A stretch of DNA of 62,631 bases. Source: Runella sp. Lineage in GTDB: Bacteria > Bacteroidota > Bacteroidia > Cytophagales > Spirosomataceae. The notes beneath the pieces were generated by a model, which saw nothing but the letters and a program-made list of their open reading frames with translations, did not search any database and was not told the DNA's origin. How positions within the stretch are numbered: position 1 is the first letter of the stretch; each line of letters begins with the position of its first letter. Positions 1,527-36,084 of this stretch are shown one piece after another. The DNA is taken from positions 1 through 62,631 of the forward strand of contig NZ_JAIXST010000078.1 in assembly GCF_027484545.1 (NCBI RefSeq), read 5' to 3'. The position numbers and the translations under genes are program-made.

Positions 1527-2846
1527 TCATTTTTGGACTAATGCTAATTTTAAGGCAAGATTATCTTTAATTGTCTTAAAATTAGCATCTTGTGCTAAGT
1601 TTTTTTGCTCGGATTCATCTTTTGTTAAATCGAAAAGATACTCTGCACCAGATTTTGTTTTAATGTATTTGTATTGTTTATCTCGAAACGTAGTTCCGTT
1701 TTTAGTATCGGGGTTCATAACATGATCAATCTCTTCATAAGTAAAATCACGGGCAAAACTATTGGGTGTTGTTAATAATGACTTGAAGCTCTTTGAGTCT
1801 TGATAAGTAGTTATGTTTGTTCCTGCAATGTCGGCAATTGTTGCAAATAAATCGGTTGTATTAATTAAGGAAGCATCTATTCCTTTTCTGTTTACGCCTT
1901 TGCCATAAATAATCATTGGAACTCGTACACCACCTTCAAAAAGAGACCCTTTTGAGGTGTCTTTTGTGAAAGGACTTTGAGCAAGTACTTCTGGTGTTCC
2001 ATTATCACCTAAAAAAATAATGATTGTATTGTCCAACTGAGCCTTCGGAATGTTCTGTAATAAGCGATTAATTTCTGTATCCATCGCCTCAATTGAAGCG
2101 AGATATTTTGACAAATTTGTATTCGTAGGCGTGCTGGTTATTAGGTTATTTGGTGGCTCTTGATAAGGAAAATGAGCGGCATTATGTGCCAACCATAAAA
2201 ACCATGGTTTGGTTTGATTCTTTATCCAGTTAATTGACTCGTTCGTAAATTCTGTTGTTGTATAATTTGTTGAACTTGTAGTTTGTCCGTTCGTAACTTT
2301 TTGCCATTTATAATAATCGGTCACTTCACCACCCATAAATCCTGCAAAATAATCAATACCCATTTTGTTGGGGTTAGATGGTCCTCCATTGGTATTGTCG
2401 GACAAATGCCACTTGCCTATTACAGCATCGGCGTACTTGTTTGAAGTATTTTGTTCAATAAATTGTTGTATTGATGTAGTTGTCAGCTTAATACCCCCCG
2501 CATTAGGTGTAGGCAATCGAACAACACCAGTCCGAAATCCGTATTGACCCGATAAAATGGTAGCCCTTGTTGGAGAGCATAAAGGATTGGCATATACTTG
2601 CGTAAAAATTAAGCCATCTTTCGCCAATTTGTCTAATGTTGGCGTTTTTGCCTTCTGTGTGCCAAAATTTGAAAATCCATTAAATGGATCTATCCCAATG
2701 TCATCGCCTATTATTAGGAGAATATTAGGCGAAAGGTTTTCGGTTGCAGGCGTACTATTATCAATTGTATCACTTTTTTTACAAGAAGATAAGATAAACA
2801 AAACACTCATCATCAAAATGGAGAGCTTGATTATTTTTAAAAACAT
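1527..2846 (-). CDS. Lipoprotein sulfatase, S1 family (Cys-type)
   Basis: This 439-residue type I sulfatase hydrolyses a sulfate ester, probably on an exported glycan fragment. The N-terminus is a lipoprotein signal with lipobox ILSSC (Cys22), so the enzyme should be membrane-anchored. The active-site motif CSPTR starts at Cys90, which must be oxidised to formylglycine. Metal-binding residues appear in IIGDDIG (about 45-51) and FLGDNGTP. A late GVRVPMIIYGKG segment is typical of arylsulfatases. It is the last gene of the PUL, separated from the lyase gene upstream by a 293-bp gap that carries a repeat, so it may be expressed less strongly or separately. Substrate position is unknown. Confidence 0.88.
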   Translation of the reverse strand: MFLKIIKLSILMMSVLFILSSCKKSDTIDNSTPATENLSPNILLIIGDDIGIDPFNGFSNFGTQKAKTPTLDKLAKDGLIFTQVYANPLCSPTRATILSGQYGFRTGVVRLPTPNAGGIKLTTTSIQQFIEQNTSNKYADAVIGKWHLSDNTNGGPSNPNKMGIDYFAGFMGGEVTDYYKWQKVTNGQTTSSTNYTTTEFTNESINWIKNQTKPWFLWLAHNAAHFPYQEPPNNLITSTPTNTNLSKYLASIEAMDTEINRLLQNIPKAQLDNTIIIFLGDNGTPEVLAQSPFTKDTSKGSLFEGGVRVPMIIYGKGVNRKGIDASLINTTDLFATIADIAGTNITTYQDSKSFKSLLTTPNSFARDFTYEEIDHVMNPDTKNGTTFRDKQYKYIKTKSGAEYLFDLTKDESEQKNLAQDANFKTIKDNLALKLALVQK

Positions 2847-2924
2847 CGTTGCTAAATTTGATTGATTTGAAACATTTATTTATTCGGTAATAGCTAAATA
2901 CACTGTTTTATTATTAATTCTATG

Positions 2925-3036
2925 TCTCGCAGATATACGCTGATTTGGCTGAATAACCCACAGCCTCGGACGGTCGCACGTTTTCGCGGAAATCAGCGAG
3001 TATCAGCGGATTTTAGATTTGCGTAAATCTGCGAGA
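2925..3036. repeat. Intergenic palindromic repeat (CGCAGAT / ATCAGCG type)
   Basis: A 10-bp perfect inverted repeat, TCTCGCAGAT (2925-2934) and ATCTGCGAGA (3027-3036), flanks a core with the words GCTGATTT, AATCAGCG and TATCAGCGGAT. I recall similar CGCAGATTT/AATCAGCG elements scattered between genes in many Bacteroidota genomes; this is from memory and needs a genome-wide search. It sits in the 293-bp gap between the lyase gene and the terminal sulfatase gene and contains no ORF. Confidence 0.6.
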
Positions 3037-3139
3037 GAGAAAAAATAACTTTTAAAACACTGTACTGAACGTAAAAAATTATAAACTTGAAATAGATAGT
3101 TGTTAGTTGAGTACCGATATTCTCTACTTCTAATATTCG

Positions 3140-4306
3140 TTAAAATACCCAAATCAACGGATTACGTATTGGTAAATTCCGAATTACTTCATCGTTTTTA
3201 GGGAAATGTTCGAGTTTTTTCCAAGTATCCAACCAAGCCTTTTCTTTATATTTTTGATACCCAAAAATCAAAAAAGGCTGTGCCACAGGCCATTCATTCC
3301 AGTACATTACATCCTGTGAACTTTTCCAAGTGGCTTTATTTTCTACAAAAGGATAGAGAAATTCTACCCCTTTTTTGAGGGTTCGGCTATCTTCTAACGC
3401 AAAATCCCACAGGCTCTCTTTTTCATCAGAAAGTACATGGCAAACGGTGGTCATGGCATCTAAATTGAAGAGCGAATAGCCATAAGGTTTAGTCCTTTTA
3501 AGTTCGAGCGGAAAGCTGCCGTCCTTTTCTATTTGATTGGGCATTAAGACCGTTTTGAATCTGTTTTTACAATAATCAAGCATTTCTTGGTTGCCAGTAA
3601 GCTTTGCAAATGAGGCTACTTGCATTACCCAACACGTTCCGTGGTTATTTTTTGCATCACGTTCTTCTATGCCGTAAGGATGTGAATTTACCCAGACTAA
3701 ATACTTAGAAAACCAATCTTTTACCTTCCCTAAGTCTTGTTTATTGACAACTTTGGCATTTTGCATCACGAGTACACCTTGTGCCACTTCCATCATTTGT
3801 ATCATGTCAATCAAGCCTGTACCACGTCCTGTTACTTTTCCTTTGATGGCTTGGGCATAAAGCAATGAGGGGTTCATGTAGGTTTTTTCGTCAATGAACC
3901 AAGCATTTAGATGTTCAAACGCTTTCTTGACGTATTTTTCGTCTTTGGTTAGCATGTACGCCGAGGCCAAAGTACCAATTATCTGACTGAACCGAATCAT
4001 TGCCTTACGATGTGCCACGAAGTTATTGGGGTTTGACTGCCCATCTCTTTGGATGTAAGGCCCATTTGGGTCGTTTGGGTTTTGCCACCAATAATCACCT
4101 TCCGAATAAAAATCATGTAGCCCACCTGCCGAACGTTCGCATTGTTGAGCAGTAACCGTGATTGGCTTCTCGGTCATCGCAATTTTAGCGTTTCCTAACA
4201 CTTGGCTTCTAAGAATTGGGCTTATAGTCTTAAATAACGAACTTTGTCCAATTCCAACAATTGGAAATAGTACGGAAATAATCAATATTTTGGCAAAAAT
4301 TTTCAT
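3140..4306 (-). CDS. Alginate_lyase-family polysaccharide lyase (PL5/PL38-like)
   Basis: This 388-residue secreted protein (signal about 1-20) has the alpha/alpha-barrel Alginate_lyase domain (Pfam PF05426). Visible family marks are YWWQNPNDPNGPYIQRDG (about 72-89), GRGTGLID (about 160-167) and KNNHGTCW (219-226), where the Asn-His pair matches the catalytic Asn/His region of PL5 enzymes. Such lyases beta-eliminate uronate polymers, for example alginate or glucuronan, and leave 4,5-unsaturated ends. The layout looks closer to the PL38-like Bacteroidota branch than to Pseudomonas AlgL, but that is a judgement from motifs only. The same domain recurs as the C-terminal third of the fusion protein at 15276-17951. 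Confidence 0.82.
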   Translation of the reverse strand: MKIFAKILIISVLFPIVGIGQSSLFKTISPILRSQVLGNAKIAMTEKPITVTAQQCERSAGGLHDFYSEGDYWWQNPNDPNGPYIQRDGQSNPNNFVAHRKAMIRFSQIIGTLASAYMLTKDEKYVKKAFEHLNAWFIDEKTYMNPSLLYAQAIKGKVTGRGTGLIDMIQMMEVAQGVLVMQNAKVVNKQDLGKVKDWFSKYLVWVNSHPYGIEERDAKNNHGTCWVMQVASFAKLTGNQEMLDYCKNRFKTVLMPNQIEKDGSFPLELKRTKPYGYSLFNLDAMTTVCHVLSDEKESLWDFALEDSRTLKKGVEFLYPFVENKATWKSSQDVMYWNEWPVAQPFLIFGYQKYKEKAWLDTWKKLEHFPKNDEVIRNLPIRNPLIWVF

Positions 4307-4341
4307 CTGGTATTTGTTATTGAGTCCTTTGATTAAGAATT

Positions 4342-5922
4342 TTATCTCGACTGCTTTTGATTTGTTAAAAATTCTGACATCAATTTCTCGTGGTCTTTCA
4401 GCACAGCCTTATATTCTGTTTTTGATGCTAAGTTTTCAGTTTCCAAAGCATCTTTTTGATAGTTATACAATTCCACTGCGACAGGTTTTGCAGTCGATAG
4501 AATGATTGTATTTCTGTAATTTTGTTCGTACCAAGCCACATAACGATAGCGTTTTGTCCGAATCGTATAACCCATCATTTTGTCGCCTTTTCTTGGATAT
4601 TGACTTTGGGTAAATGATTTTAGTTCAATCTCAGGATTTTTCAAAACTGGAACTAAACTTTTACCAGCTAGATCTGCGGGTGTTTTTAAACCTGCCATTT
4701 CGGTTAAAGTTGGGAAAATATCTACAAACTCACTTAATCCTTGGGCTTTTTGATTTCCTTTAAATGCTGGCGATGCAATGATAAGTGGGGCTTTGGTGGC
4801 TTGTTCATAATTATCGTGTTTGCACCAAAGTCCGTGGTCGCCCAAATGCCAACCATGGTCGCCCCACAGAACAACGATGGTGTTTTTATCTAAGCCTTGT
4901 TTTTTTAATTCATCCAACAATTTTCCTACCTGTGCATCCATGTAGCTTACTGCCGCATAATAGCCATGAATTAACTCTCGTTGAATAGCCTCTGATTGTG
5001 GCGTGGCTTTGGCATCAAAATGTTCAAAATTGCTTTGCATATAAGCATTGTATAATTCCCCTGAATTTTGAGCTGCATAATCGGGAGCTCCTACGGGCAT
5101 ACGTTGAACACCAGAAATCTTGATTTTTGAACGGTCATATAAATCCCAATATTTTTTAGGCGAAATAAAAGGTAAATGTGGTTTAACAAAACCCACAGCA
5201 TAGAAAAATGGCTTTTGGTCTTTGGCAAACTTCCCGAGCATTTCAATGGCATTTTTAGCGACAACGCCATCCATGTAGGCATCATCTGGCACATCTGCCG
5301 ACTCTACAGCTGGACCTTTATTGTTTGCCAAATATTCAGTTAATTCTGTGCCTGTAAGCCCTCGACTTTTGGCATCAGCTTCAATTTTGGCAACTTTTGC
5401 TTTCGTTTCAGGCAACTGATAGCCGTTTACAGGTTTTTCAAAGCCTGCGGCATAATTGCTCGGAAATTTTCCATAGGATACTGCTGGAATACTCCAAGAA
5501 GGTACATCCATTCCTTTATCAACCGAACGTTGGTCAAACATTTTACCAATCGTCGCTGTAGTATAGCCATTTTCTTTAAAGTATTGAGGGAGGGTAACTA
5601 CATTGGGAACCATGTCTCTGAGCTGGGTTTTCAAATCCCAAATTCTGGTATAATCAGGTCGTTGGCCAGTTAAAAGACTGGCTCGGGTAGGGGCACAAAC
5701 AGCCTGCTGGCAGTAATTATTCATAAAAACTGTCCCCATTTTGGCCAATCGGTCAATATTGGGCGTAATCATTTGGCTTTCACCATAACAACTCAACAAT
5801 GGTTTTAAATCATCTACAGCGATGAAAAGAATATTGGGTTTTTCTGTTTTTTGTGCAAAAAGGTCATGGCCTAAAACAAGTAAGCATAAAGCCAAAGTCC
5901 AAAGGGTAGTGGTTTTTTTCAT
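4342..5922 (-). CDS. Secreted sulfatase, iduronate-2-sulfatase-like (S1_7-like)
   Basis: The 526-residue protein has a signal peptide ending near LFAQ (about 24). The sulfatase signature is VCAPTRASLLTG, with the formylglycine precursor at Cys76. AVDDLKP (about 35-41) and LWGDHGWHLGDHG hold metal and sulfate ligands; the GDHGWHLGDH pattern is typical of iduronate-2-sulfatase-like S1 enzymes. It is a close paralogue of the sulfatase at 27512-29101, with shared stretches such as KMGTVFMNNYCQQAVC, so the locus has duplicated this enzyme. Iduronate specificity is not proven, because this subfamily includes other specificities. Confidence 0.88.
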   Translation of the reverse strand: MKKTTTLWTLALCLLVLGHDLFAQKTEKPNILFIAVDDLKPLLSCYGESQMITPNIDRLAKMGTVFMNNYCQQAVCAPTRASLLTGQRPDYTRIWDLKTQLRDMVPNVVTLPQYFKENGYTTATIGKMFDQRSVDKGMDVPSWSIPAVSYGKFPSNYAAGFEKPVNGYQLPETKAKVAKIEADAKSRGLTGTELTEYLANNKGPAVESADVPDDAYMDGVVAKNAIEMLGKFAKDQKPFFYAVGFVKPHLPFISPKKYWDLYDRSKIKISGVQRMPVGAPDYAAQNSGELYNAYMQSNFEHFDAKATPQSEAIQRELIHGYYAAVSYMDAQVGKLLDELKKQGLDKNTIVVLWGDHGWHLGDHGLWCKHDNYEQATKAPLIIASPAFKGNQKAQGLSEFVDIFPTLTEMAGLKTPADLAGKSLVPVLKNPEIELKSFTQSQYPRKGDKMMGYTIRTKRYRYVAWYEQNYRNTIILSTAKPVAVELYNYQKDALETENLASKTEYKAVLKDHEKLMSEFLTNQKQSR

Positions 5923-5986
5923 AAAAAAGATTTGCAGTTTAAACTATTTCTAAAAAATCAGTAGCAAGCCAAAAATGATTGAAAAA

Positions 5987-7471
5987 TTAAACAGTCCTTT
6001 CCTTTTTCCATTCATAAACAACTGCCCCATGAATGTCATGGTGTTGAAAAGTAATGCTACTTTTATTGTCTATTCGTTTTAAATCAACCGATAAAAAACC
6101 GCCTTTTACCAAATGAAAACGGTGATAGGCTTTGTTTTCACCTGGCGTACCACCTGCGTGCTCATCGCTTGCTGCACCGATGCTGAATTCATTAAGACCC
6201 GTTTCGGGATGCACCGAATGGTATTGCCAATGACGGTCGCCACAAATCACGAAAAAATTATCTGGGACATTCGCTTGAAGCCAATTTCGCAATTCATCGC
6301 CTTCGTGTTTGAAACCTTTATTGGTATGATTATCATCCTTCTGCGGACGGTCAGGCCCCACTAAAGGTGTTGGACTGACAAGCACTTTCCATGTAGTAGT
6401 GCTTTCTTTGACCGTTTTTTGAAACCATTCTTTTTGTTCTTTGCCCCAAATCGTTTTTTCGGGACCATCGGGCATTTCATTGGGAGAACGAAAATCCCGT
6501 CCATCCGTCAGCCAAATTTGTAGATCTTGTCCCCAACGGAAAGTGCGGTAACTTGGAGAATTTCCATACATGGGGGCTTGTTGATAGAAAATATTCTGCC
6601 CTTGTGCGAATGTAAAATCACCCATTTTTGCACCTGGTTCAGAGTCATTATCAAGGGTGTCGTGGTCGTCTTTTAGCCAATATGTACCGACATTGCGGTT
6701 AAATTCCATCAAACGAGGCAAACTAAACATGCGTTCCCAATGGTAACGCGCCAATCGCTCTGTAAAAGCCCTTGGCATATCGTTGTCATAATAGACCAAA
6801 TCGCCTGTCAGACAAGTGAATTTGGGTTTAAGTGCCAGCATCGCTGGATAAATATTGTGCCCATCTGGATGCCCACGGTCGGGATAGCCTTGACAGGTCA
6901 TCAAGCAAAAACGAAAATTGCTGGGTGTGTCAGCGGCAGGTGCGGTTCCAAATTTGCCTTTAAATGTTTCGCGTCCTTTTTTGCGTTTGTTGGTGGTCGC
7001 TTCGCTTTCGTAATAGTAAGTTGTATCGGATTTTAAACCTTCCAAAGTAAAATGATGAATGAAATCGGTGCTTTCTGATACTTCAACCCATTCAGTCGTT
7101 TGAGCTGTTTTTAAATTTTCATCTACCCCATAACGAACCCGCACAAAGCCTGAAACACCAGGACAAGCACCTTCGAGTTGCTCAACAGGAACGGTGACAA
7201 CTGGTAATTGGCCTTGGGGATAATCGTTCATACGTCCAGGAATAAGTACACCTTTGTTATTGCGAACAGGCACTGAAGTTAAGCGCGTCCAAATAATGGC
7301 AGAAGTATCCGTGACTTCACCGACCCGCGTACCCATGGCTTGATAAATGATTTTATTTTCATCAAAAATACGGAGGGGTATCCCCGAAAGTACGGAAGAG
7401 CCCAAAGCGATTGAAGCCGTTTGTTTTACAAATGCACGACGAGTTACGGGTGTTTTATCTTTTTTTTTCAT
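5987..7471 (-). CDS. Tat-exported PhoD-like metallophosphatase
   Basis: This 494-residue protein begins with a twin-arginine signal (TRRAFVKQ, Arg11-Arg12). A PhoD N-terminal beta domain follows (about 40-170, ending in a TTYYYESE strand). The PhoD catalytic domain has CLTGDLVYYD, WLKDDHDTLDND, TDGRDFRSP and CGDRHWQYHS, the usual metal-ligand blocks. PhoD-family enzymes are Ca/Fe-dependent phosphomonoesterases or phosphodiesterases. Its start overlaps the stop of the upstream sulfatase gene (7468-7471, ATGA), so the two are probably translationally coupled. A phosphatase inside a sulfated-glycan locus suggests removal of phosphate esters from the same substrate, but it could also simply scavenge phosphate. 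Confidence 0.85.
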   Translation of the reverse strand: MKKKDKTPVTRRAFVKQTASIALGSSVLSGIPLRIFDENKIIYQAMGTRVGEVTDTSAIIWTRLTSVPVRNNKGVLIPGRMNDYPQGQLPVVTVPVEQLEGACPGVSGFVRVRYGVDENLKTAQTTEWVEVSESTDFIHHFTLEGLKSDTTYYYESEATTNKRKKGRETFKGKFGTAPAADTPSNFRFCLMTCQGYPDRGHPDGHNIYPAMLALKPKFTCLTGDLVYYDNDMPRAFTERLARYHWERMFSLPRLMEFNRNVGTYWLKDDHDTLDNDSEPGAKMGDFTFAQGQNIFYQQAPMYGNSPSYRTFRWGQDLQIWLTDGRDFRSPNEMPDGPEKTIWGKEQKEWFQKTVKESTTTWKVLVSPTPLVGPDRPQKDDNHTNKGFKHEGDELRNWLQANVPDNFFVICGDRHWQYHSVHPETGLNEFSIGAASDEHAGGTPGENKAYHRFHLVKGGFLSVDLKRIDNKSSITFQHHDIHGAVVYEWKKERTV

Positions 7472-9054
7472 TTTTTTACCTTTTTCTTACTTTGTTTCAC
7501 ACCTACTTTTTTAGCCCAAACATCAAAATCAATGCTCATTTCAGCGACTTTTTTTTCAGATTGTTGAGCGATATTCTTATTTTCGCTTGGGTCTGTTTCG
7601 AGGTCGTACAATGCCCAATCGGCCTCATCTGCTTCTTTTACTAATTTAAAATTGCCTGTTCTAATCGCTTCATTGCCTTGATGTTCCCAATAAAGTGTTC
7701 TTGGATTCGCTTTTTTACCCGTCCAAAGATAGCTTAGGCTTTGACCATGAATATTTGTAGCGGCAGGGGCTTGTGCCAAATCAAGGCTTGTCGGCAAAAG
7801 GTCAATGACGTGACTTGGGGCATCCATATACCCTTTTTTCGGTTTGATTTTAGCGGGCCAGTGCATGATACAAGGGCTGATAATACCGCCTTCGTGGGTG
7901 AATTTTTTATACAATTTGAAAGGCGTATTCGAGACATTTGCCCATTGATAATCATACGTGCCGTAGGAACCCCGCTCCCCGATCCTTTTAGTGGGTAAGC
8001 CGAGTTTTCTATCGTCCACATTTTCATCGCAGCCGCCATTATCCGATAAAAAGACGATGAATGTGTTGTCTAACTGCTTCGTGTCTTCTAAATTCTTTAT
8101 CAATTTGCCAATATTTCTGTCCATCCTGTCAATCATCGCTGCATAAACAGCCATTTTCCTTGCCCAAGTGGCTTTGTCTTGCACTGAATTCCAAGCTGGA
8201 ATATTATTTGGGCGAGTCGTAAGCGCATAACGTTTGTCCAATAAACCCAATTTCTGCATTTTTTTGAAACGGTTTTCACGGGTCACATCCCAACCTTGTA
8301 GGTAGAATTTTTCATATTTGGCAATGTCTTCTTCGTAGGCATGAAGCGGAAAATGCGGCGCAGTATAAGCGAGATATAAAAAGAACGGATTGGCCTTTTT
8401 GCCTGCCTGATTAATAAATTCAATCGCCTTGTCGGTAAAAGCGTCAGTGGCGTAATACCCCTCAGTAGGAAGCACATATTCTTGGTCATTCAAGACCATA
8501 AAACGTTTTCTTTTCTCTTTTAAAACCTCAAAATAGCTCGAAGCACCCGAAATCAAGCCGAAATATTTATCAAAACCCCGTTTAAGAGGCCAATGTTCTG
8601 GGCTTTCACCGACGTGCCATTTGCCCGTCATATAGGTATTGTATCCTGCCGCATGTAGTCGCTCGGCAATTGTCGGCACACTCGGGTCGAGATAACCTTG
8701 ATAGCTGCCTTTCTCTACTTTTTCATCTTCAAAAGACACCATGCCGCCCATGCCGACCGCATGAGAATAATTGCCCGTCAGTAAAGATGCGCGTGTCGGA
8801 CAGCAACGACCTGCATTGTAAAAGCTTCTCAATTTAATCCCATTCACCGCTAATTTATCAATATTGGGTGTGCTGATTTCGCTGCCGTAGCAACCAATAT
8901 CCGAAAAGCCCATATCATCTGCCATGATGATAATGATATTGGGGCGAGGATTTGCCGTTTCTGTTTTTTTCAGCGATAAGAAACTGCACAAAACGATACC
9001 ACTCAACGCTGTGAGCAAGAGTAGAGCGGATTTGGTTTGTTTAAATATTTTCAT
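7468..9054 (-). CDS. Secreted arylsulfatase, S1 family (S1_4-like)
   Basis: The 528-residue sulfatase has an N-terminal hydrophobic export segment (about 9-28). The active-site motif is CCPTR, with the formylglycine precursor at Cys84, in AGRCCPTRASLLTG. MADDMGFSDIGCYG (about 44-57) and LSDNGGCDENV carry metal ligands, and the EGGIISPCIMHWPAK segment is typical of AtsA-like arylsulfatases. The C-terminus is unusually basic (KQSKKKVKK). It is a paralogue of the sulfatase at 23205-24920, sharing the layout DMGFSDIGC/DMGYSDIGC. The stop overlaps the next gene by 4 bp. Confidence 0.88.
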   Translation of the reverse strand: MKIFKQTKSALLLLTALSGIVLCSFLSLKKTETANPRPNIIIIMADDMGFSDIGCYGSEISTPNIDKLAVNGIKLRSFYNAGRCCPTRASLLTGNYSHAVGMGGMVSFEDEKVEKGSYQGYLDPSVPTIAERLHAAGYNTYMTGKWHVGESPEHWPLKRGFDKYFGLISGASSYFEVLKEKRKRFMVLNDQEYVLPTEGYYATDAFTDKAIEFINQAGKKANPFFLYLAYTAPHFPLHAYEEDIAKYEKFYLQGWDVTRENRFKKMQKLGLLDKRYALTTRPNNIPAWNSVQDKATWARKMAVYAAMIDRMDRNIGKLIKNLEDTKQLDNTFIVFLSDNGGCDENVDDRKLGLPTKRIGERGSYGTYDYQWANVSNTPFKLYKKFTHEGGIISPCIMHWPAKIKPKKGYMDAPSHVIDLLPTSLDLAQAPAATNIHGQSLSYLWTGKKANPRTLYWEHQGNEAIRTGNFKLVKEADEADWALYDLETDPSENKNIAQQSEKKVAEMSIDFDVWAKKVGVKQSKKKVKK

Positions 9055-9110
9055 AAAAAATTGATTTTTAACGCTTTGTAAAATACCCCCCTCCGTATGT
9101 CTGCTAAAAT

Positions 9111-11447: not shown

Positions 11448-11507
11448 AATTTAATTGGTCGTGAAGTTTCCCCTCCATAAAAAAGGTATTTTTAAGGTAT
11501 AAAATGC

Positions 11508-11913: not shown

Positions 11914-11970
11914 CACGTTGTTATTTAGTTCTGTAAAAAAGGTGAAATACAGAGGGGGTAAAAAAGTAAA

Positions 11971-21684: not shown

Positions 21685-21716
21685 TTTACAGTTTCTTAAA
21701 AATATTTTTTTAAAAT

Positions 21717-26055: not shown

Positions 26056-26060
26056 CTTCT

Positions 26061-27515: not shown

Positions 27516-29101
27516 TTTTGATTCGATTTGAAGAAAGCTAACATTTTAGCATTCATATCTTTTGCAATTGTTGCATACTTTTTGTCTTTCACCACGTTAA
27601 CCTTTTCTAAAGGGTCTTTTTCGTAGTCATACAATTCGCTGGCATAAACTTTTTTAGCAGAATAGGGGTCATTGCTGGTAAAGTCACTCATCCAAAGCAC
27701 ATACCGATATTTTTCGGTTCGCATAGCGTATCCCATCAATTTATTGGTGGCGTAGCCCAAACTTTTCTGTTCTTCTTTTTTCAATTTTCGAGGATATTGA
27801 CTTACAGAAAAGTCTTTTACCTTCGCTTTGTTATTGACCATAATAGGCTTTAAACTTTTGCCATCTAAAAAAGTAGGAATGGGCGTACCTGCCAAATCAC
27901 ATATCGTTGGAAAAATGTCTAAATGTTCAGTCTGAGAACTTGTTTTTCCTGATTTTATTCCTGGTGCGGCAATAATGAGTGGTGCTCTGGTTGCTTGTTC
28001 AAAATTGGTATGTTTTTCCCATAAATCATGGTCGCCTAAATGCCAACCGTGGTCGCCCCAAAGTACGATAACAGTATTGTTTAATGTCCCTAATGAATCA
28101 AGAGTATTCAAGAGGATTCCCACTTGGGCATCCATGTAAGAAACCGCAGCATAGTATCCATGAATCAATTCTCGTTGCTTTTCTTCTTTAAGATTTACAT
28201 GAAGACCGCCCTCTTCATTGTAAGTAGCAAAGGCTGGAATATCTGTATAATTTCGTAATTCTCCCGAGCGGTGATAAGCGATTTCAACGCCATTTTTTGA
28301 ATGCTCTTGAAAAGTTGCCAATGGCATGTCAGCATCCTTATACAAATCCCAATATTTTTTGGGGGCAACAAAAGGTAAATGAGGCTTATGAAACCCAACC
28401 GCCATAAAGTAAGGTTGGGTGTTTTTTGAAAACTTTATCAATTGTTGTTTTGCCAACAGAGCATCTACGCCATCATCATAAGCGTTGTCAGGTACATCAA
28501 TGTTTTCAAATGATGGACCTTTTCTACTGGTTGGATTTTCATCGTCGCCATCATCATTTTTTGGTTTTTGAACTTTTTTATCGAATAAAACCTTCATTTC
28601 AGGCTTTTGGTATTGACCGTTAGCAGGTTTACCCAACCCATTGGCATAGTCGCTGGGTGATTCTAACAAATAAGGCACACTCCATGAAACAGGATCTACT
28701 CTTTTAATGGCACTTGAGGGGTGGAAAATTTTTCCGACCCCCGAAGTAGCGTAACTTTGTGTAATTAGATATTGAGGAAGTGTAATAATATCGGGGTTCA
28801 TGTCCCGCATTTGGGTTTTTAAGTCCCAAATCTTGGTGTAATCGGGTCGTTTACCTGTCATTAAGCTTGCACGGGTAGGTCCACAAACCGCTTGTTGGCA
28901 ATAATTATTCATAAAAACAGTCCCCATTTTTGCCAAACGGTCAATATTAGGTGTCTTTATTTGTGTGTTTCCGTAACAGCTCAATATTGGTTTTAAATCA
29001 TCAACTGCAATAAACAGGACGTTGGGCTTGCTCTTTTGCTGGGCAAAAATACTTGTTCCTAATAAAATTAGGAACAAGCTAAGTAAAGATACTTTTTTCA
29101 T
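27512..29101 (-). CDS. Secreted sulfatase, iduronate-2-sulfatase-like (S1_7-like)
   Basis: This 529-residue sulfatase has a signal peptide ending near SIFAQ (about 21). The active site is AVCGPTRASLMTG with formylglycine precursor Cys73. AVDDLKPILSCYGN and LWGDHGWHLGDHDLWEKH carry metal and sulfate ligands, and VGFHKPHLPFVAPKKYWDLY fits the iduronate-2-sulfatase-like group. It is the close paralogue of the sulfatase at 4342-5922 but has an acidic insert (NDDGDDENP, about 178). It is the first enzyme gene after susD, a position often given to enzymes active at the outer membrane. Confidence 0.88.
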   Translation of the reverse strand: MKKVSLLSLFLILLGTSIFAQQKSKPNVLFIAVDDLKPILSCYGNTQIKTPNIDRLAKMGTVFMNNYCQQAVCGPTRASLMTGKRPDYTKIWDLKTQMRDMNPDIITLPQYLITQSYATSGVGKIFHPSSAIKRVDPVSWSVPYLLESPSDYANGLGKPANGQYQKPEMKVLFDKKVQKPKNDDGDDENPTSRKGPSFENIDVPDNAYDDGVDALLAKQQLIKFSKNTQPYFMAVGFHKPHLPFVAPKKYWDLYKDADMPLATFQEHSKNGVEIAYHRSGELRNYTDIPAFATYNEEGGLHVNLKEEKQRELIHGYYAAVSYMDAQVGILLNTLDSLGTLNNTVIVLWGDHGWHLGDHDLWEKHTNFEQATRAPLIIAAPGIKSGKTSSQTEHLDIFPTICDLAGTPIPTFLDGKSLKPIMVNNKAKVKDFSVSQYPRKLKKEEQKSLGYATNKLMGYAMRTEKYRYVLWMSDFTSNDPYSAKKVYASELYDYEKDPLEKVNVVKDKKYATIAKDMNAKMLAFFKSNQK

Positions 29102-29110
29102 TGTAATTGA

Positions 29111-30658
29111 TTAGTAACCAGCGTTTTGAGGGATTACAATTTGAGTATTATTATCAATTTCCCTTTGTGGAATAGGCAATAATAAACGATTGGGATTGGT
29201 ATTTGTTTGCAAATCTGTCACAGACAGCCTCGGTGCTGAATAGGTGCTATAATGACTTGGATACATCAACGCAAAGTGGTCTTGCAATGTTTTTTCCGCC
29301 GTGATAGTTGTTAATGTTGTATTAAATCGTAACAAATCGAACAGTCGTTGGTTTTCAAAAGCAAATTCAAGTCTTCTTTCGTCAGATAATGCCTTCTCAA
29401 ATAATGCTACTGTATTAACTTGCGTGGCCGTTAAATCTGTCAATGCAGCACGTTTACGAACTTGATTAATGAGTGCCAAACTTGCGGGCGTATTTCCTTG
29501 TGCTTCGGCCAGCATCAGCAATACATCAGCATAACGAATTACTGGCCAATCACTTTCAGAATCTTTGGCTACAACCATCACAGAAATATGTTTTTTGGGA
29601 TAAAGTTTTGCGGCAGTCCCTGTTCCATATACTCCAATATTTACTGCTTTTCTTACATCAGTTGTTGTATATAGGTTATTAACTTCGGAAGTTGGGTAAT
29701 TATAACCACTACCATCGCCATTGGCTACGGCAGCACCGCTATTTAGAGGTGCGAAAAGGTTTGAAAACTGAGAACCCAATCCTAAACCACCTGCTTTGTA
29801 ACGAACAGAGAAAAGAATTTCAGAACTCATTTCCGTTGCAGTAGAGAAGATATTTGCATAAGAAGCAAGTAAACTATACCCACTATTGGCAATAATATCT
29901 TGCAACAAGGTAGCCGCCTCCGTTTTTTTGTTGAGAGTGAGATAAACCTTAGCCAATAATGCCTTTGCAGACCAAGCGTTTGCACGCCCCAAATCAACAG
30001 CTGAGATGGACGCAAATTTCACAGTGCTACCGTTGGCTGCTGCGTTCTGTAAATCAGCCACAATCAGTTTGTAAATCTCTTCTTTCGAAACCCGATTGAT
30101 ATCTTTTGCCTCCTGAGGTGTTACTGGCTCGTGTGCCAGAAACACACCGCCGTATAATCGTACTAAATTGAAATAATGGTAAGCTCTGATAAATGAGGCT
30201 TCGGCAGAGAGTTTTTTACGGTTGGCCTCATCAATCGGAATATTAATTTCACCAAAAGTCAATGCTCCTGAACCTGGGCTATAATTGGCCCCTAATGCAT
30301 CAAGTACAAGGTTGGTATTACGGATATTATAGTAAACTGACAGCCAGTAATTATAATTACCAGCATGTGAAGTACTTGGATATAGCATGTCCAATTCACT
30401 CAAATCACGGTTTACCTGTGAACTACTACCCGTAGCTCCCATGACAGAATTGTCACTACGAAGTTCGGTAAGTGTCCATTCTTCAACCAAGGTTTTTTGC
30501 ATACCACTATAGCAGCCCGTCAAGGCACTGCTCACCTCCGACTGATTTGAGTAAAATGTACTGGCATTTAGGTTTGATTGTGGGTATAAGTCTATGATAT
30601 TGTTACAACTACTCAAACTTACAAACGAGAGAAGGATTATATATTTGATTGCTTTCAT
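29111..30658 (-). CDS. SusD/RagB-family outer-membrane glycan-binding lipoprotein
   Basis: The 515-residue protein has a lipoprotein signal with Cys18 (SLSSC) and the SusD fold. Marks are NLNASTFYSNQSEVSSALTG near the N-terminus, the TPR-like segment ASFIRAYHYFNLVRLYGGV (about 164-182) and the closing LRFNTTL...RLLLPIPQREID block. SusD proteins cap the SusC channel and capture glycan at the cell surface. It is placed directly after susC (20 bp) as expected for a SusCD pair. It is the only SusD in the window, so this pair probably imports all fragments made by the enzymes downstream. Confidence 0.95.
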   Translation of the reverse strand: MKAIKYIILLSFVSLSSCNNIIDLYPQSNLNASTFYSNQSEVSSALTGCYSGMQKTLVEEWTLTELRSDNSVMGATGSSSQVNRDLSELDMLYPSTSHAGNYNYWLSVYYNIRNTNLVLDALGANYSPGSGALTFGEINIPIDEANRKKLSAEASFIRAYHYFNLVRLYGGVFLAHEPVTPQEAKDINRVSKEEIYKLIVADLQNAAANGSTVKFASISAVDLGRANAWSAKALLAKVYLTLNKKTEAATLLQDIIANSGYSLLASYANIFSTATEMSSEILFSVRYKAGGLGLGSQFSNLFAPLNSGAAVANGDGSGYNYPTSEVNNLYTTTDVRKAVNIGVYGTGTAAKLYPKKHISVMVVAKDSESDWPVIRYADVLLMLAEAQGNTPASLALINQVRKRAALTDLTATQVNTVALFEKALSDERRLEFAFENQRLFDLLRFNTTLTTITAEKTLQDHFALMYPSHYSTYSAPRLSVTDLQTNTNPNRLLLPIPQREIDNNTQIVIPQNAGY

Positions 30659-30678
30659 TATTCAAGAGTTTTTAGCGA

Positions 30679-33600
30679 TTAAAAATTAATGTCAATTCCA
30701 AAAATGATGGTTTTAGGAATAGGGAAACTTCCTCTTTGATAGCCATCTACCAACGACGAGCCATACGCACCATTCGTAAAACGTCCTTCTGGATTTAAGC
30801 CTCTGTATCCTTTGGCAGTATGAAAATAAAGGTTTTGCCCCGAAGCATACACTCTCATTGAACTCATTCCTACGGATTTTGAAATTTTAGTAGGCAATTT
30901 GTAGCCTAAGTTTATTTCTCTGAGCGAAAAGTAAGAGGCGTCTTCGACTACATAATCTGTAAGTAACCAGTTAAAGCCATTTGTATTGTAAGGTGTTTTG
31001 CCATCACCTGGAAACATGGGGCTCAACCAGCGGTTAGCGTTATAGGCCCTGTTTTTCTGTTTGGCTTCGTTATAGTTGGGATCTCCATTGACAAGCGAGC
31101 CTCCTTGCACACCTTGCAACGAAAAGCTAAGGTCAAATGACTTGTAATTGAGATTGTTAGTAATACCCCAAGTAAAATCTGGATATGGATTTCCAATGAC
31201 TGTTCGGTCGTTGTTGTCGATAATTTTATCCCCATTTATATCAACCAATTTTAATCCCCCTGGAACAAAATAGTTTGTTAGGCTACTTTTTACACCATCC
31301 GCTTTGGCTTTGTCCACGTCAGCTTGTGATAGCCACACACCATCTGTTTTAAAACCGAAAAACTGAATCAATGGGTCGCCAACTTTGTTTTGATAGACTT
31401 CTGTCCGTTCGCCTTGATTCAATAGGTAGGCTTCTTTGCCTAATTCTAATATTTTGTTTTTGGTATGAGAGAAATTAGCAGAAGTATTCCATTTGAAGTT
31501 TTTGGTAGATATATTTCGGGTTGTTAATTCTAATTCAATACCCTTGTTTTCTAAACTACCGATATTATTCCAAAAAAGAGGAACACCCGTAAAAGCCATT
31601 GATGATTGTTGCAGCAATAACCTATCTGTTTTGGATTGGTAAACATCAACCGAAAGCTCTATTCTGTTTTTGAGAATAGCCAAGTCTAAACCCAAGTTGG
31701 TTTGAAAAGTACTTTCCCAAGTAATGTCTTTGTTGGCAATTATGGTAGGTGAGGTAGATTGACCCGCCACTAAGTTGCCATTTCCTGTACCCAAAGGATA
31801 GTTGGCCGAATACATTAAATCCAAAAAGCCAAAATCAAGAATGCGGTTGTTACCAGACACACCATAGCTTGCTCTTAATTTTAATTTATTCAACCAGCTT
31901 ATGTGTTTCAAAAACTCTTCTTCGGTGGCTACCCAGCCTACTGAAATAGATGGAAAAGAACCCCATTTCTTGCCAGGGCCAAAATAAGAACTACCATCAG
32001 TACGAAAACTTGCAGAGAGCAGGTATTTATCTTTGTACTCATAATTGACCCTGCCCAAATAAGATAACAACCCAATTTGATTGATGGAACTTGTTGTTCC
32101 AGCTTTGTCAATTTGTGATGCATTGTTGATGGTTCTGATATCATCGCTTGGGTAGTCCAATCCAGTTACTTGGCTTCTGCTTACTTTGGTAGTTTGGGCA
32201 GTATAACCAAGCAAGGCATTGATAGTATGACTGCCTATGGTTTTTGTATAATTCAAGGTGTTTTCAGAAAGTAAATCAATGTAAGAAGTAGTATTGTAAA
32301 CACCCTTGCTTACGATACCATCGCCCGTTGCATTTCGATTAGCCCAGTTCAAACCAGAAGAATTGTTGACATAAACACTCGCCATCGTTTTGAAATCTAA
32401 ACCTTTGAGGAGATTGATGGTCAGGTTGCCCGAACTTTGTAAACGATACTCGTTCGAGTTTACATCTTGACTTAACACTGCAGATTTAGGGTTGTTTTGT
32501 GATGAACCCGTTTGTGGCCCTGTTGGCCCTGTAGATGTCCAAGTTGATCCATCTGGCATCAAACCAGAGTAAACTTGATTACTAAAATGTCTTGGATGGG
32601 CAAAATCACCCGCTTTTATATCAGCCCATTGAGGGACTTGTCTGACCCAAGCCGCCGTTTTTTCATTGTGATACACGGGCAGTGAGCTGGGAAATCGCAT
32701 AAAATTGGTGAAATTCTCAGATGGTGTTTCTCTTGTAGAATATGAAGGATTTAGGTTGAGCGAAAGTTTTACTCTTTTGCTTAAATCCACATCTACTTTT
32801 GCACGTATATTGTATTTCTCATAATTACTTTTAAACATCATTCCTTCGTCTGACTGATAGCCACCAGAAATGAAGTAACGAACGTCCTTTTTCCCGCCAG
32901 ACGCACTCAACAGAATATTTTGAAACTTTCCCGACCTCAAAGACTCGCTTTGATAATCACTTCCTTGACCATCCAGCATAGTTTGTTCAATGATATAAGC
33001 CGAGCGGTCGTTATCACCAGCTGTATTTGCGATTGTTCGAGCTGGTGCACTTGGGTCTTGTGCTCGCAAGGCCGCTTCGTCAAAAAGCAACTTTACATAG
33101 TCTGTTGCCGACATGATATCATACCTTTTGTAAGGTGTTTTTTGCCCTACTGAGTATTTGAAAGAGTATGTTGTTTTCTCTGACTTTCCACTTTTTGTGG
33201 TGATTAGTATTACCCCACTTGCACCACGAGATCCATAAATAGCCGCCGAAGCCGCATCTTTTAGTACTTCAACCGATTCAACATCAGCCATGTTGACAAA
33301 GGCAAGTCCGTCTGGTACAGGTTGTCCATCAACTACAACTAATGGACTCGAACCTGCATTTACAGAGGTGATACCTCTGATAGTGATTTTTGGAGTAGCA
33401 CCCGCTTCTGAAGAAATATTCTGAATTTGTACACCAGCTATTTTACCTTGCAAGGCTTGGTCGAGTCTGGAAACTGGTGCTTCGTCTAATTTTTCATTTT
33501 TGTATTTGGAAACAGCACCCGTCAGACTTGATTTTTTTTGTGTACCATAGCCAACTACTATGACTTCTTCCAAAGATTTGTTATCAACCTTAAGCGAGAC

Positions 33601-34242
33601 ATCAATAGAATTGCTATTCCCAACAACGATTTCTTCGCTCTGATAACCCACAAAACTAAAGACCAATACTGCTGTTTTGGCATTGGCTAAATCTAAAGTG
33701 TATTCACCCTTTGCATTGGTCGTGGTCCCTTTGCTTGTTCCTTTCACTACTACACTTACACCAGGCAGAGGTTCACCACTTGCTGCGTCTTTGATACTCC
33801 CTTTTATAGGATTGTCACTTGTTTCGGAATTTGAGGATTGCTGAGCTGACGGCTTTATTTCATTTATATCATCGGCAGATGGCATATTGCTCAAAATAAT
33901 ATTGTTTCCAGAGGGCCTATATTTGATGCCAAGTGGTGTTAAAAAAGCATCCAATACCTCTTTGACAGTCTTATTCTGAACGTTGATTGAGCTTTTTCTT
34001 TGGGCATCAATGGCTGATGAACTATATACAAATTTTAGTTTTGCTTCAGCCTCAATCTGTGACAAAATGTTTTTAATTGACTTTTCCTTGATGATTAAAG
34101 AGATACGTTTTTCAAGAAGTTCTTGGGCATAACTCTTTTTTGCATAGGCCATTCCTATAAAAAGAAAGGTTATTGCCATTTGAGTAATTGATATTCGCAT
34201 GATTTTAAGGAATGTTTTATTCCTGAGTAAATTTACTTTCAT
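30679..34242 (-). CDS. SusC/RagA TonB-linked transporter with STN signalling domain
   Basis: I place the start at the ATG at 34242, which opens a normal signal (about 1-40, ending KKSYAQ) and gives 1187 residues. The longer frame adds 43 residues read from leader DNA. Domains in order: STN (about 48-120, KRISLIIKEKSIKNIL), carboxypeptidase-like regulatory domain (about 147-230, GSIKDAASGEPLPGVSV), TonB plug (EEVIVVGYGTQKKSSLTGAV onward) and a 22-strand-type barrel to the end. STN domains pass ligand occupancy to a FecR anti-sigma factor, and FecR and sigma lie just upstream. It should import the oligosaccharides and switch on the locus. Confidence 0.95.
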   Translation of the reverse strand: MKVNLLRNKTFLKIMRISITQMAITFLFIGMAYAKKSYAQELLEKRISLIIKEKSIKNILSQIEAEAKLKFVYSSSAIDAQRKSSINVQNKTVKEVLDAFLTPLGIKYRPSGNNIILSNMPSADDINEIKPSAQQSSNSETSDNPIKGSIKDAASGEPLPGVSVVVKGTSKGTTTNAKGEYTLDLANAKTAVLVFSFVGYQSEEIVVGNSNSIDVSLKVDNKSLEEVIVVGYGTQKKSSLTGAVSKYKNEKLDEAPVSRLDQALQGKIAGVQIQNISSEAGATPKITIRGITSVNAGSSPLVVVDGQPVPDGLAFVNMADVESVEVLKDAASAAIYGSRGASGVILITTKSGKSEKTTYSFKYSVGQKTPYKRYDIMSATDYVKLLFDEAALRAQDPSAPARTIANTAGDNDRSAYIIEQTMLDGQGSDYQSESLRSGKFQNILLSASGGKKDVRYFISGGYQSDEGMMFKSNYEKYNIRAKVDVDLSKRVKLSLNLNPSYSTRETPSENFTNFMRFPSSLPVYHNEKTAAWVRQVPQWADIKAGDFAHPRHFSNQVYSGLMPDGSTWTSTGPTGPQTGSSQNNPKSAVLSQDVNSNEYRLQSSGNLTINLLKGLDFKTMASVYVNNSSGLNWANRNATGDGIVSKGVYNTTSYIDLLSENTLNYTKTIGSHTINALLGYTAQTTKVSRSQVTGLDYPSDDIRTINNASQIDKAGTTSSINQIGLLSYLGRVNYEYKDKYLLSASFRTDGSSYFGPGKKWGSFPSISVGWVATEEEFLKHISWLNKLKLRASYGVSGNNRILDFGFLDLMYSANYPLGTGNGNLVAGQSTSPTIIANKDITWESTFQTNLGLDLAILKNRIELSVDVYQSKTDRLLLQQSSMAFTGVPLFWNNIGSLENKGIELELTTRNISTKNFKWNTSANFSHTKNKILELGKEAYLLNQGERTEVYQNKVGDPLIQFFGFKTDGVWLSQADVDKAKADGVKSSLTNYFVPGGLKLVDINGDKIIDNNDRTVIGNPYPDFTWGITNNLNYKSFDLSFSLQGVQGGSLVNGDPNYNEAKQKNRAYNANRWLSPMFPGDGKTPYNTNGFNWLLTDYVVEDASYFSLREINLGYKLPTKISKSVGMSSMRVYASGQNLYFHTAKGYRGLNPEGRFTNGAYGSSLVDGYQRGSFPIPKTIIFGIDINF

Positions 34243-34289
34243 TACATTTGGTTGTTTTTGTAAGATTTGGAAACGGTTTGACAAGAACA

Positions 34290-34327
34290 CTCCCGACAAC
34301 GATGCATGAGACTGATATTTTCGGGAG
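34290..34327 (-). other. Inverted repeat in susC leader
   Basis: CTCCCGA (34290-34296) and TCGGGAG (34321-34327) can pair across a 24-nt loop in the transcribed leader between fecR and susC. It lies about 50 nt before the chosen susC start. It may shape translation or stability of the susC message; that is inference. A second hairpin lies 11 bp further upstream. Confidence 0.4.
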
Positions 34328-34337
34328 GGGATTGGGG

Positions 34338-34367
34338 TCGGTAGTGGTGCAAGCACTACCGATTTTT
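34338..34367 (+). terminator. Hairpin plus T-run, plus-strand terminator-like, antisense to the susC leader
   Basis: TCGGTAGTG (34338-34346) pairs perfectly with CACTACCGA (34354-34362) over a 7-nt loop, followed on the plus strand by TTTTT (34363-34367). No plus-strand gene ends here, since susC and fecR are both on the minus strand. On the minus strand the hairpin would instead be preceded by A residues. A short antisense RNA across the susC leader would be a natural user of it; see findings. Confidence 0.45.
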
Positions 34368-34426
34368 GCAACTTTGGGTTGGTGTTTTTATAAGATTTAT
34401 TGTCTTATTGAGAATAGTACTATACT

Positions 34427-35482
34427 TTATTTACAGCCTTTGGCATAAATTACGATTTGGCCATCTACTACTTCATAACGGGCTTGGATGGTCTCACAGA
34501 TGACCTCTATTTTTTCATAAAGCGTTTCTTGATTCTGGAATACAGCAGTGAGATTGCAATGAGCCAACAAATCGGCATCAAACGTAATTTTTACACCGTA
34601 GGCTTCCTCAATTTGCGTTAGCACTTTTGAAATAGGCGTTTCGTCGTACTCAAATTGGCTATTTTCGGAATTCGGAAAAAGAAGTATCGGTTTTTCGACC
34701 AAGGTTTTTACTAATTTCTCTTCTGTTTTCTCAAAAACCACTTGTTGATTAGGAACCAATAACATTTGCCCTAAGTGTTCTATATCATTAGTACCAGCTT
34801 GTTGATAAACGGTCACCCTTCCTGTACGCACAGCGACCAAAGTTTTGGTTTCGTCTTTATAAGCTCTGATAGTAAAACTTGTCCCTAAAACCTTGGTAAC
34901 AATGCCCCCGGCATACACTATAAATGGGCGCTGAGGGTCTTTTTGAACTTCAAAAAATGCTTCTCCTGTCAAAAAAACCGTTCTGGTTTGGACTCCAAAA
35001 TCTGTAGAGACCTGTAGCTTACTCCCTTTTTTGAGGGTTACGACAGAGCCATCGCTTAATTTCGTACTAAGTGGCTGTAAACTATTGTTTTCGGTTTCAG
35101 TAGTCTTTGAAAGAACTAGATATTCTCCATTTGGCACTGAAAAGAACGATTTTTGGTATAGAAAGGTAAAAGCCATTATCAAGACGATTGATGCGGCAAT
35201 TTTAAACCAAGTTTGCTCGAAGAGTCTTTGCTGCTTTGACTCTGTTCTATTCAATATGGCCTGTATTCCTTGTTGAATCTGCTGAGTTGGAATTGTTTTT
35301 TCTTCAATTTGAGAAGCAATCACTAAGGATTTGGCTTCTTCGAGTAACATTTTTTTGTTGGGATGCTGCTCCAACCAATTTTCCCAAAAACAATCTTTAC
35401 TCGAAAGCTTCTTTAATACCCATTTTCTGAAATAGAGGTCTTGTACAAAATCCTCTATTTGATATTTCTCCAATTTGTTCAT
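34427..35482 (-). CDS. FecR-family anti-sigma factor
   Basis: This 351-residue inner-membrane protein holds the ECF sigma factor inactive until the SusC STN domain signals. The cytoplasmic part (1-90) carries a Trp-rich anti-sigma segment (CFWENWLEQHPNKK). One membrane helix spans about 93-109 (FKIAASIVLIMAFTFLY). The periplasmic FecR domain (about 125-235) has KLSDGSVVTLKKGSKLQV and VFLTGEAFFEVQKDPQRPF, and a DUF4974 C-terminal domain (about 270-351) ends in ARYEVVDGQIVIYAKG. The gene follows the sigma gene by 8 bp. Confidence 0.95.
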   Translation of the reverse strand: MNKLEKYQIEDFVQDLYFRKWVLKKLSSKDCFWENWLEQHPNKKMLLEEAKSLVIASQIEEKTIPTQQIQQGIQAILNRTESKQQRLFEQTWFKIAASIVLIMAFTFLYQKSFFSVPNGEYLVLSKTTETENNSLQPLSTKLSDGSVVTLKKGSKLQVSTDFGVQTRTVFLTGEAFFEVQKDPQRPFIVYAGGIVTKVLGTSFTIRAYKDETKTLVAVRTGRVTVYQQAGTNDIEHLGQMLLVPNQQVVFEKTEEKLVKTLVEKPILLFPNSENSQFEYDETPISKVLTQIEEAYGVKITFDADLLAHCNLTAVFQNQETLYEKIEVICETIQARYEVVDGQIVIYAKGCK

Positions 35483-35490
35483 AAAGATGA

Positions 35491-36084
35491 TTAAGTAATT
35501 ATAGTGGTTATGGAAAATAGTAATGACATTACCCAGTTTTTTCTTAATAGTTTCAGTGCTTCATACACCAAATTGATAGCGGAATGATGATTAATTGCCA
35601 TTATTTGGGAGATTTCTTCATATTCTAATTCTTGATTGAACCGCAAATACAACGCCTCTCTTTGCCTCTTGCTTAATGTAGAAAGGTGGTATTTTAGTTT
35701 TACGAGCGTTTCGTGTTCGATTTCGTTTTTAATCAAGTAGGTTTCTATATTAAACTGAACCTCAACTTCATAATGGTCATCAAGGTCAGTTACTCGCTGA
35801 TGCCAGAAATTGCGAGTTTTCTCCTTAAGCAATGCTCTCCGATAAGACGAAATAAGGTATGCCTTGATTGATTGGGGGATGTCAAGCTTATCTCGGCAAT
35901 TCCACAATTCAATAAAAAAATCCTGAAGGCAATCCTGAGCAAAATCATTATCCCTAACCAAACGTTGACCGTAATTAAGCAAGGTCGGATAGTATAGATT
36001 CAATATTTTTTCAAAAGCCTTACGATCACCTTTTTGGAAGGATTGCCAAGTTATTGTCTCCATCACTGATAAATCTTCGTTCAT
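35491..36084 (-). CDS. RNA polymerase ECF sigma factor (sigma-70 family)
   Basis: The 197-residue protein has sigma region 2 at about 24-90 (DFAQDCLQDFFIELWNCRDKL) and region 4 at about 130-180 (LSTLSKRQREALYLRFNQEL, then the helix-turn-helix EEISQIMAINHHSAIN). It has the Bacteroidota ECF layout paired with FecR. It probably drives expression of the SusC operon after release by the anti-sigma factor. It is the promoter-proximal gene of the PUL; the first usable start is at 36084, with a second Met eight codons in. The upstream region contains a strong inverted repeat at 36206-36254. Confidence 0.95.
   Translation of the reverse strand: MNEDLSVMETITWQSFQKGDRKAFEKILNLYYPTLLNYGQRLVRDNDFAQDCLQDFFIELWNCRDKLDIPQSIKAYLISSYRRALLKEKTRNFWHQRVTDLDDHYEVEVQFNIETYLIKNEIEHETLVKLKYHLSTLSKRQREALYLRFNQELEYEEISQIMAINHHSAINLVYEALKLLRKNWVMSLLFSITTIIT

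Follow-up and report, generated by a model that had tools for sequence, protein, structure and literature searches.

Which glycan would be the target of a polysaccharide utilization locus (PUL) that places an alginate-type transporter pair and uronate lyases among eight sulfatases? A locus of this kind lies at positions 1527-36084 of a 62,631-nucleotide stretch of Runella sp. DNA (contig NZ_JAIXST010000078.1), the whole of which is called the window here. An initial annotation had proposed that the substrate contains uronate, carries sulfate and acyl groups and falls outside the usual heparin, chondroitin, ulvan and fucoidan sets, which fits the gene content, and had named dermatan-like and glucuronan-like polymers among the options. 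Our analysis favours, with a probability of about 0.5, a glycan that bears sulfate and O-acyl groups and is built on a 1,4-linked polyuronan core of the alginate or glucuronan type, and an origin of the PUL by module addition.

Pfam scans of window proteins (E ≤ 0.001; genes up to position 48621) covered all 21 genes of the locus, every one of them on the minus strand. The scans identified a sigma factor and FecR regulator, a SusC/SusD pair, a PL6 lyase, two PL38-type lyase domains (one of them in an esterase-esterase-lyase fusion), GH88, a GH95-like enzyme, a toroid protein, a DUF4861 protein, a PhoD-like phosphatase, a formylglycine-generating enzyme (FGE) and eight sulfatases. This bears out the gene inventory first given for the locus, as well as the absence of PL8, PL12, PL13 and PL21, none of which was found in the 21 genes. 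The genome contains 30 SusD matches and 29 sulfatase matches, and the locus is thus one of many PULs in its host.

Transporter genes and their relatives

The TonB-dependent transporter SusC (30679-34371; PF07715, PF13715, PF07660) carries an STN signalling domain; its listed start is a TTG, and the true start is probably internal. It is followed by the glycan-binding lipoprotein SusD (29111-30658; PF07980, 125.8 bits). A search with SusD of 241 genomes of the order returned 22 genomes (own included) at 1e-60, the best matches being those in G545 (60% identity) and G471 (46%), with the other listed matches at 35-40%. The corresponding search of 395 genomes from the phylum gave matches at 1e-80 in the host genome itself and in three others, G091 (61%), G206 (64% over residues 1-337) and G307 (52%). 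The five nearest SusD relatives shared 45-63% identity in a common alignment (A5), and SusC was 61% identical to its counterpart in G545 and 47% identical to that in G471.

Examination of the genes around these five relatives revealed a PL6 gene beside every one, a PL17-type gene beside four and an SDR gene in four. The G545 locus comprises MFS, SusD, SusC, an Alginate_lyase+Hepar_II_III_C protein (PL17 type), SDR and PL6 genes, and the G471 locus SusC, SusD, a heparinase II/III protein, PL6, a PL17-type protein, MFS and SDR. SusD adjoins a PL17-type protein, SDR and PL6 in G206, PL6 and a PL17-type protein in G307, and PL6 and SDR in G091, where no PL17 was present among the four genes scanned. 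A pairing of PL6 with PL17 is described for alginate utilization loci in PMC5966431. A sulfatase search of the five genomes placed none inside the alginate-type loci (0/5); the distance to the nearest sulfatase was about 32 kb in G545 and about 385 kb in G091, and the contigs carrying the other three loci had no sulfatase match.

Trees were built from 14 SusC and 15 SusD proteins, including eight control rows. The window pair fell within the set from alginate/PL6 loci with support of 100/100 and 100/99 and, inside that set, grouped more closely with three or four of the alginate-type rows (99/98 and 100/100); all eight controls fell outside. For control loci at 33-40% identity (G454, G040, G442, G535 and G551), one or two neighbour genes were scanned in each: none of the six genes tested was a PL6, and the six comprised two BNR_4 proteins, two sulfatases (both in G040), one alpha/beta hydrolase and one protein without a match. 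As judged from these trees, the SusC/SusD pair nests among transporters of alginate-type loci, a relationship new to the description of this locus. A Bacteroides finegoldii plasmid (L088, 5549-22322) also carries a SusCD pair of the same SusC clade, together with PL6 and heparinase-type genes, in what looks like a mixed uronan locus.

Upstream of SusC lie genes for an ECF-type sigma factor (35491-36084; PF04542/PF04545) and a FecR-type anti-sigma regulator (34427-35482; PF04773, PF16344).

Lyases and esterases

The PL6 lyase (26061-27515; PF14592, 254.6 bits) is a single-domain protein of 484 aa. Its closest solved structures are the alginate lyases 7o84 (6.4e-64) and AlyGC (4.1e-57), versus 2.1e-22 for chondroitinase B, so that by E-value it is closer to alginate lyases by about 40 orders of magnitude; the dermatan-like substrate named at first is disfavoured on this account. 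The enzyme is 35% identical to the PL6 of G545 over 365 residues and is the sole PL6 match of the host genome at 1e-30, with three of 59 relatives (own included) having one. Residues K247 and R268 are separated by 21 positions, which we take to be the spacing of the PL6 catalytic Lys/Arg pair.

The two further lyase domains belong to a free enzyme (3140-4306; PF05426, 297 bits; 3nfv, 1.3e-62) and to a fusion of a BD-FAE esterase, a GDSL esterase and a lyase (15276-17951; PF20434, PF13472 and PF05426, the last at 305 bits), whose start is probably the ATG at codon 4. The Alginate_lyase domain of the fusion spans residues 563-841 and matched 3nfv (6.6e-88) and 8bdq (1.1e-64). Both domains are closest in the PDB to these two structures, which we take to be members of PL38. 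When the fusion was used as a query in 59 genomes, no other match among those listed spanned both halves, each covering either the esterase or the PL38 half. G014 and four genomes of the genus have the esterase pair without PL38, and in G001, G004 and G010 an esterase-pair gene and a PL38 gene lie about 36-47 kb apart; the Runella PUL was not seen in a 60 kb region of G010 examined for open reading frames (ORFs) of ≥200 aa. In G017, genes for FecR, SusC, SusD, PL38, GH88 and PL38 are consecutive (the three enzymes by Pfam) and form a minimal PUL, the SusC of which falls outside the window SusC clade in the tree. Family PL38 includes alginate lyase and glucuronan lyase activities (PMC13027841).

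Sulfatases and their maturation

All eight sulfatases are PF00884 proteins with the C-x-P-[S/T]-R maturation motif, and together with the FGE (24937-26076; PF03781, 283.5 bits) they match the eight sulfatases and FGE first annotated. The FGE contains GGSFLCNESYC, presumably the motif that matters for this enzyme. Kinship, short of a formal SulfAtlas S1 assignment, was read from the nearest solved structures for seven of the nine window sulfatases (S_g excluded). S_h (27512-29101; 141 bits) is iduronate-2-sulfatase (IDS)-like: a joined-query PDB search gave IDS at 1.2e-73 for the whole query, with the best stretch within S_h. S_d (13834-15264; 153.8 bits) resembles 6hhm and IDS and holds the best stretch of each in the PDB search (1.1e-71 and 9e-60), and S_b (4342-5922; 167 bits) holds the best stretch of 6hhm at 2.4e-90. 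S_c (7468-9054; 211.5 bits) is 7all/1hdh-like (7all, 1.3e-102), and S_f (21717-23177; 114.7 bits) is nearest to an S1_8A sulfatase (9bb9, 3.7e-31). For S_e (20329-21738; 196 bits), steryl/aryl and carrageenan/S1_19 sulfatases scored alike. The remaining two are S_g (23205-24920; 222 bits) and S_a (1527-2846; 170.9 bits), the latter with a lipobox-like start. We assume that S_h and S_b belong to S1_7 and S_c to S1_4; an NCBIfam profile search returned general models only, all under their cut-offs.

The eight proteins are diverse as judged by alignment, with identities of 51% for S_b/S_h, 39-40% for S_c/S_g and 33-35% for S_d to S_b and S_h; the best full-length match of S_a, S_e and S_f to any other of the eight was about 26-30%. 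At 1e-20 the host genome had 29 sulfatase matches, of which at least nine are on this contig (genes up to 48621 scanned), compared with 11-22 matches in each of the 12 further Runella genomes; sulfatase clustering here therefore exceeds chance.

Processing of unsaturated uronate

The clear GH88 gene of the locus (17955-19163) encodes a predicted unsaturated glucuronyl hydrolase (UGL) nearest to 3wiw (1.2e-109), which we take to be a heparin-type UGL, and has THDMGF and IIDNMMNLE, presumably the two Asp motifs of GH88. It adjoins the DUF4861 gene (19188-20327; PF16153, 265 bits), a family found at 1e-20 in 10 of 59 genomes (own included). DUF4861 also follows directly after GH88 in Fibrella and occurs with rhaM, rhamnosidases, sulfatases and GH88 in a plasmid cluster of Alteromonas sp. 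76-1. A Runella slithyformis protein is a GH88-DUF4861 fusion by Pfam (L071, 313-2274). This adjacency, the fusion and the Alteromonas cluster suggest that DUF4861 is tied to unsaturated-uronate processing and not to a single polymer. The DUF4861 protein of G018 is 76% identical, and its contig was considered as a second copy of the PUL; no further enzyme of the set was recognised there among ORFs of ≥180 aa (a GH95 is present), and the candidate was rejected.

A second protein, annotated at first as GH88/105-like (11971-13815), gave merely a weak C-terminal match (PF07470/PF07944; 36.5 bits to GH88 and 33.5 to GH127). This 614-aa alpha-toroid protein is an orphan: of 296 genomes searched, its own alone gave a match at 1e-30, and there was no plasmid match. 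Single-sequence structure prediction was of low confidence for both proteins, with a mean pLDDT of 31.7 for DUF4861 and 35.0 for the toroid protein. Genome-wide, two KduI-family matches exceeded the cut-off, and there were two fucose-isomerase-type matches (8.2e-11 and 5.3e-6).

A divergent GH95-like enzyme

The gene at 9111-11447, initially called GH95, does match that family (PF22124) at 80 bits and is divergent; we refer to it as GH95L. In an alignment of seven GH95L rows and two true GH95 rows (A1), N335 and N337 (N-x-N), S467 and E469 (S-x-E) and HRHxSH were invariant, and the Asp of the true GH95 rows (QVDG, QIDG) aligned with Glu in all seven GH95L rows. We take the Asn pair, the Glu and the Asp to be the GH95 catalytic residues, the Asp position thus not being kept in GH95L. 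Identity to the two true GH95s compared was 17-20%, and on this evidence the clade may merit its own family.

GH95L was present at 1e-30 in 12 of 296 genomes (own included), three others of which reach 1e-80 or better. Relatives occur in four Chitinophagaceae metagenome-assembled genomes (MAGs; three full-length at 58-59%, one partial at 55%), Mariniflexile gromovii, Tamlana sedimentorum, a Phycisphaerae MAG and B. finegoldii. In Mariniflexile the neighbours include GH29 and GH97 genes, another GH95-like gene and a sulfatase; in Tamlana they include GH29, a heparinase-II/III-type protein, a sulfatase and a true GH95; and in a lake Chitinophagaceae MAG (L049) they include GH42, esterases, a beta-helix protein and two large proteins without a Pfam match. 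The partners of GH95L thus include heparinase-like lyases (B. finegoldii, Tamlana) besides fucosidase families (Mariniflexile, Tamlana), and fucose can at most be a candidate for its target. A gut relative of this setting is seen on a B. finegoldii plasmid (L085, 17674-37021), where a GH95-like gene is accompanied by three lyases annotated as HepC, a sulfatase and SusCD. In G206, GH95L (64% identical to that of the window) is part of a large GH92/GH43/GH3/GH27/GH88 locus on contig C3 (L055-L056), and five sulfatases in a row lie 25-34 kb from it (152684-161163).

Comparison with known systems

No full copy of the PUL was seen in the genomes searched, part of the matched neighbourhoods having been examined; the queries were the fusion, DUF4861 and PL6 (59 genomes each), GH95L and the toroid protein (296 each) and SusD (241 and 395). 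Several modules of the locus occur separately in relatives. Alginate utilization loci of Bacteroidota share with it PL6 and SusC/SusD of the same clade, and it differs from them in having two PL38 domains, GH88, esterases and eight sulfatases in place of PL17, SDR and MFS. The G017 PUL has both PL38 types and GH88 in common with the window, whereas its SusC clade differs and no sulfatase was recognised among its ORFs of ≥180 aa. A Hymenobacter volaticus plasmid has SusCD, a PL38-like lyase (42%) and GH88, as in the window locus. Plasmid pAlt76 of Alteromonas sp. 76-1, linked to ulvan in the title of PMC6431674, shares DUF4861, GH88 and several sulfatases; its cluster differs in having rhamnosidase, rhaM and BNR-4 genes, none of which is among the 21. 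The Pfam scans likewise showed no BNR_4 or rhamnosidase gene of ulvan type, recognised Pfam names covering some of the ulvan lyase families. A glycosaminoglycan (GAG) PUL of Roseihalotalea indica resembles the window in that its SusCD locus includes PL38 and an esterase, but has PL8 and PL35, and the portion of PMC13027841 consulted names neither a PL6 nor a sulfatase for it.

Substrate and alternative explanations

PL6, PL38 and a transporter of alginate type together indicate a 1,4-polyuronan, and the presence of esterases, sulfatases and FGE indicates that it carries acyl and sulfate groups; GH88 in place of PL17 suggests that the unsaturated uronate is removed by hydrolysis. In origin, a PL38/GH88 module, esterases and a desulfation set would have been added to an alginate-type SusC/SusD and PL6 module. 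Substrate bound by SusC would signal through the STN domain to FecR and the sigma factor. Esterase domains would remove acyl groups, the fused and free PL38 lyases and PL6 would cleave the uronate chain by beta-elimination, and SusC/SusD would import the oligomers. These would then be desulfated by FGE-matured sulfatases of several sequence types, GH88 would take off the 4,5-unsaturated uronate, and DUF4861, from its neighbourhood and fusion, may act on the same or the next residue. The unsaturated uronate may enter a KduI-type route. The weakest step is the trimming of side residues by GH95L and the toroid protein; the branching proposed in the initial annotation draws on these same two proteins and is weak. 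Its glucuronan-like option is the best of those offered, and SusC/SusD and PL6 refine it to an alginate- or glucuronan-like polyuronan.

Several observations weigh against this gene-based assignment. No PL17 (Alginate_lyase+Hepar_II_III_C), SDR or MFS gene is present among the 21, so that plain alginate is not an evident target. PL6 and PL38 are polyspecific, and RiPL38 acts on hyaluronan and weakly on chondroitin sulfate (PMC13027841). The exact sister of the window SusC/SusD has weak support (83/82 and 89/89), the tree rows were picked by similarity to the window and only the neighbouring gene content is an independent fact, and transporter kinship can outlast a change of substrate. The B. 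finegoldii row of the set lies beside genes of the PL6 and alginate-lyase families but also of the heparinase II/III and heparin-lyase-I families, which means that alginate need not be the sole substrate of the clade. Sulfatases next to SusCD are also common as such: same-genus SusDs at 35-37% identity adjoin sulfatases, and G040 (37%) has two.

It is possible, if on balance doubtful, that the substrate is instead a sulfated heteropolysaccharide in which glucuronic acid alternates with or branches from fucose, galactose and other sugars, as in freshwater charophyte mucilage, the alginate-type transporter having been re-purposed. The genus has freshwater members, the source of Runella slithyformis DSM 19594 being a fresh water lake, and the locus has IDS/6hhm-like sulfatases and a DUF4861 protein of the kind found in the Alteromonas cluster. 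GH95L relatives stand in Chitinophagaceae MAGs, near GH29, GH97 and GH95 in Mariniflexile and Tamlana, and near GH92, GH43, GH3, GH27 and GH88 in G206. However, the locus has a single family-recognisable candidate for a side-chain hydrolase, itself divergent, and no GH29, GH78, GH2, GH3 or GH43 among its 21 genes by Pfam, and the alginate-type SusCD favours a uronan. Charophyte extracellular polymers are rich in fucose, galactose and glucuronic acid, with variable sulfate, in the portion of PMC10762512 consulted, and freshwater algal mucilage is a possible source of the substrate. Synechan was rejected as a candidate, containing almost no uronate (0.1 mol% in an overproducer, 3.1 in the wild type; PMC8205485, in part).

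The locus is unlikely to be a composite in which an alginate/glucuronan set and a general sulfatase set lie side by side and serve different glycans of one mixed mucilage. Its parts do occur separately: alginate-type SusCD with PL6 in G545, G471, G091, G206 and G307, PL38-GH88-PL38 in G017, the esterase pair without PL38 in the five genomes described above, and DUF4861 in G018 without the other enzymes of the set. Here, though, the genes interleave: sulfatase genes separate PL6 from SusD and the lyases from one another, the whole set shares a single transporter pair, and the esterases are fused to PL38. Very unlikely is a PUL for dermatan or a related GAG, for which one may cite the inclusion of chondroitinase B in PL6, the presumably heparin-type 3wiw as nearest to GH88, the IDS-like and S1_8-like sulfatases and RiPL38, and which is lowered by the kinship of PL6 and SusCD to alginate systems and by the lack of PL8, PL12, PL13 and PL21.

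Neighbouring genes

Within the locus, a PhoD-like phosphatase is encoded at 5987-7471 (PF09423, 80.9 bits). Divergent plus-strand genes at 36875-44025 encode BNR/sortilin-like, Gfo/Idh/MocA oxidoreductase and GH43-like proteins and a ninth sulfatase (40141-41679); they may form a second operon beside the PUL, and may or may not belong to it. At the other end, a 346-aa protein (430-1470) with a GHSAGG serine-hydrolase-like motif is convergent with the PUL and had no Pfam match at 0.001.

Discussion

A 2018 survey describes 27 alginate PULs without sulfatases and natural sulfated alginate as unreported (PMC6298971). No alginate locus with sulfatases was reported in the titles and abstract openings of the open-access PMC papers found, and open-access PMC literature yielded nothing on DUF4861, on Runella with sulfatase, or on alginate combined with sulfatase, PL6, PL38 and GH88. 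Set against that survey, the Runella locus appears to be an alginate-derived import system in a sulfatase-rich setting, not a dermatan system, and a variant not seen before. It is a gene-level counter-example to the rule of alginate PULs without sulfatases, the existence of the polymer itself being a matter of inference. We would suggest, tentatively and as a rather improbable proposal, that a polyuronan resembling alginate or glucuronan occurs naturally in sulfated and acylated form, probably in fresh water, and that this PUL, converted from an alginate locus, is dedicated to degrading it. With a PL6 and a transporter of alginate type set among eight sulfatases, the locus makes it possible to test whether a sulfated polyuronan exists and provides enzymes with which to look for it. 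Taken together, these data also link DUF4861 to GH88, and hence to the processing of unsaturated uronate, and point out a GH95-like clade with an altered acidic residue.

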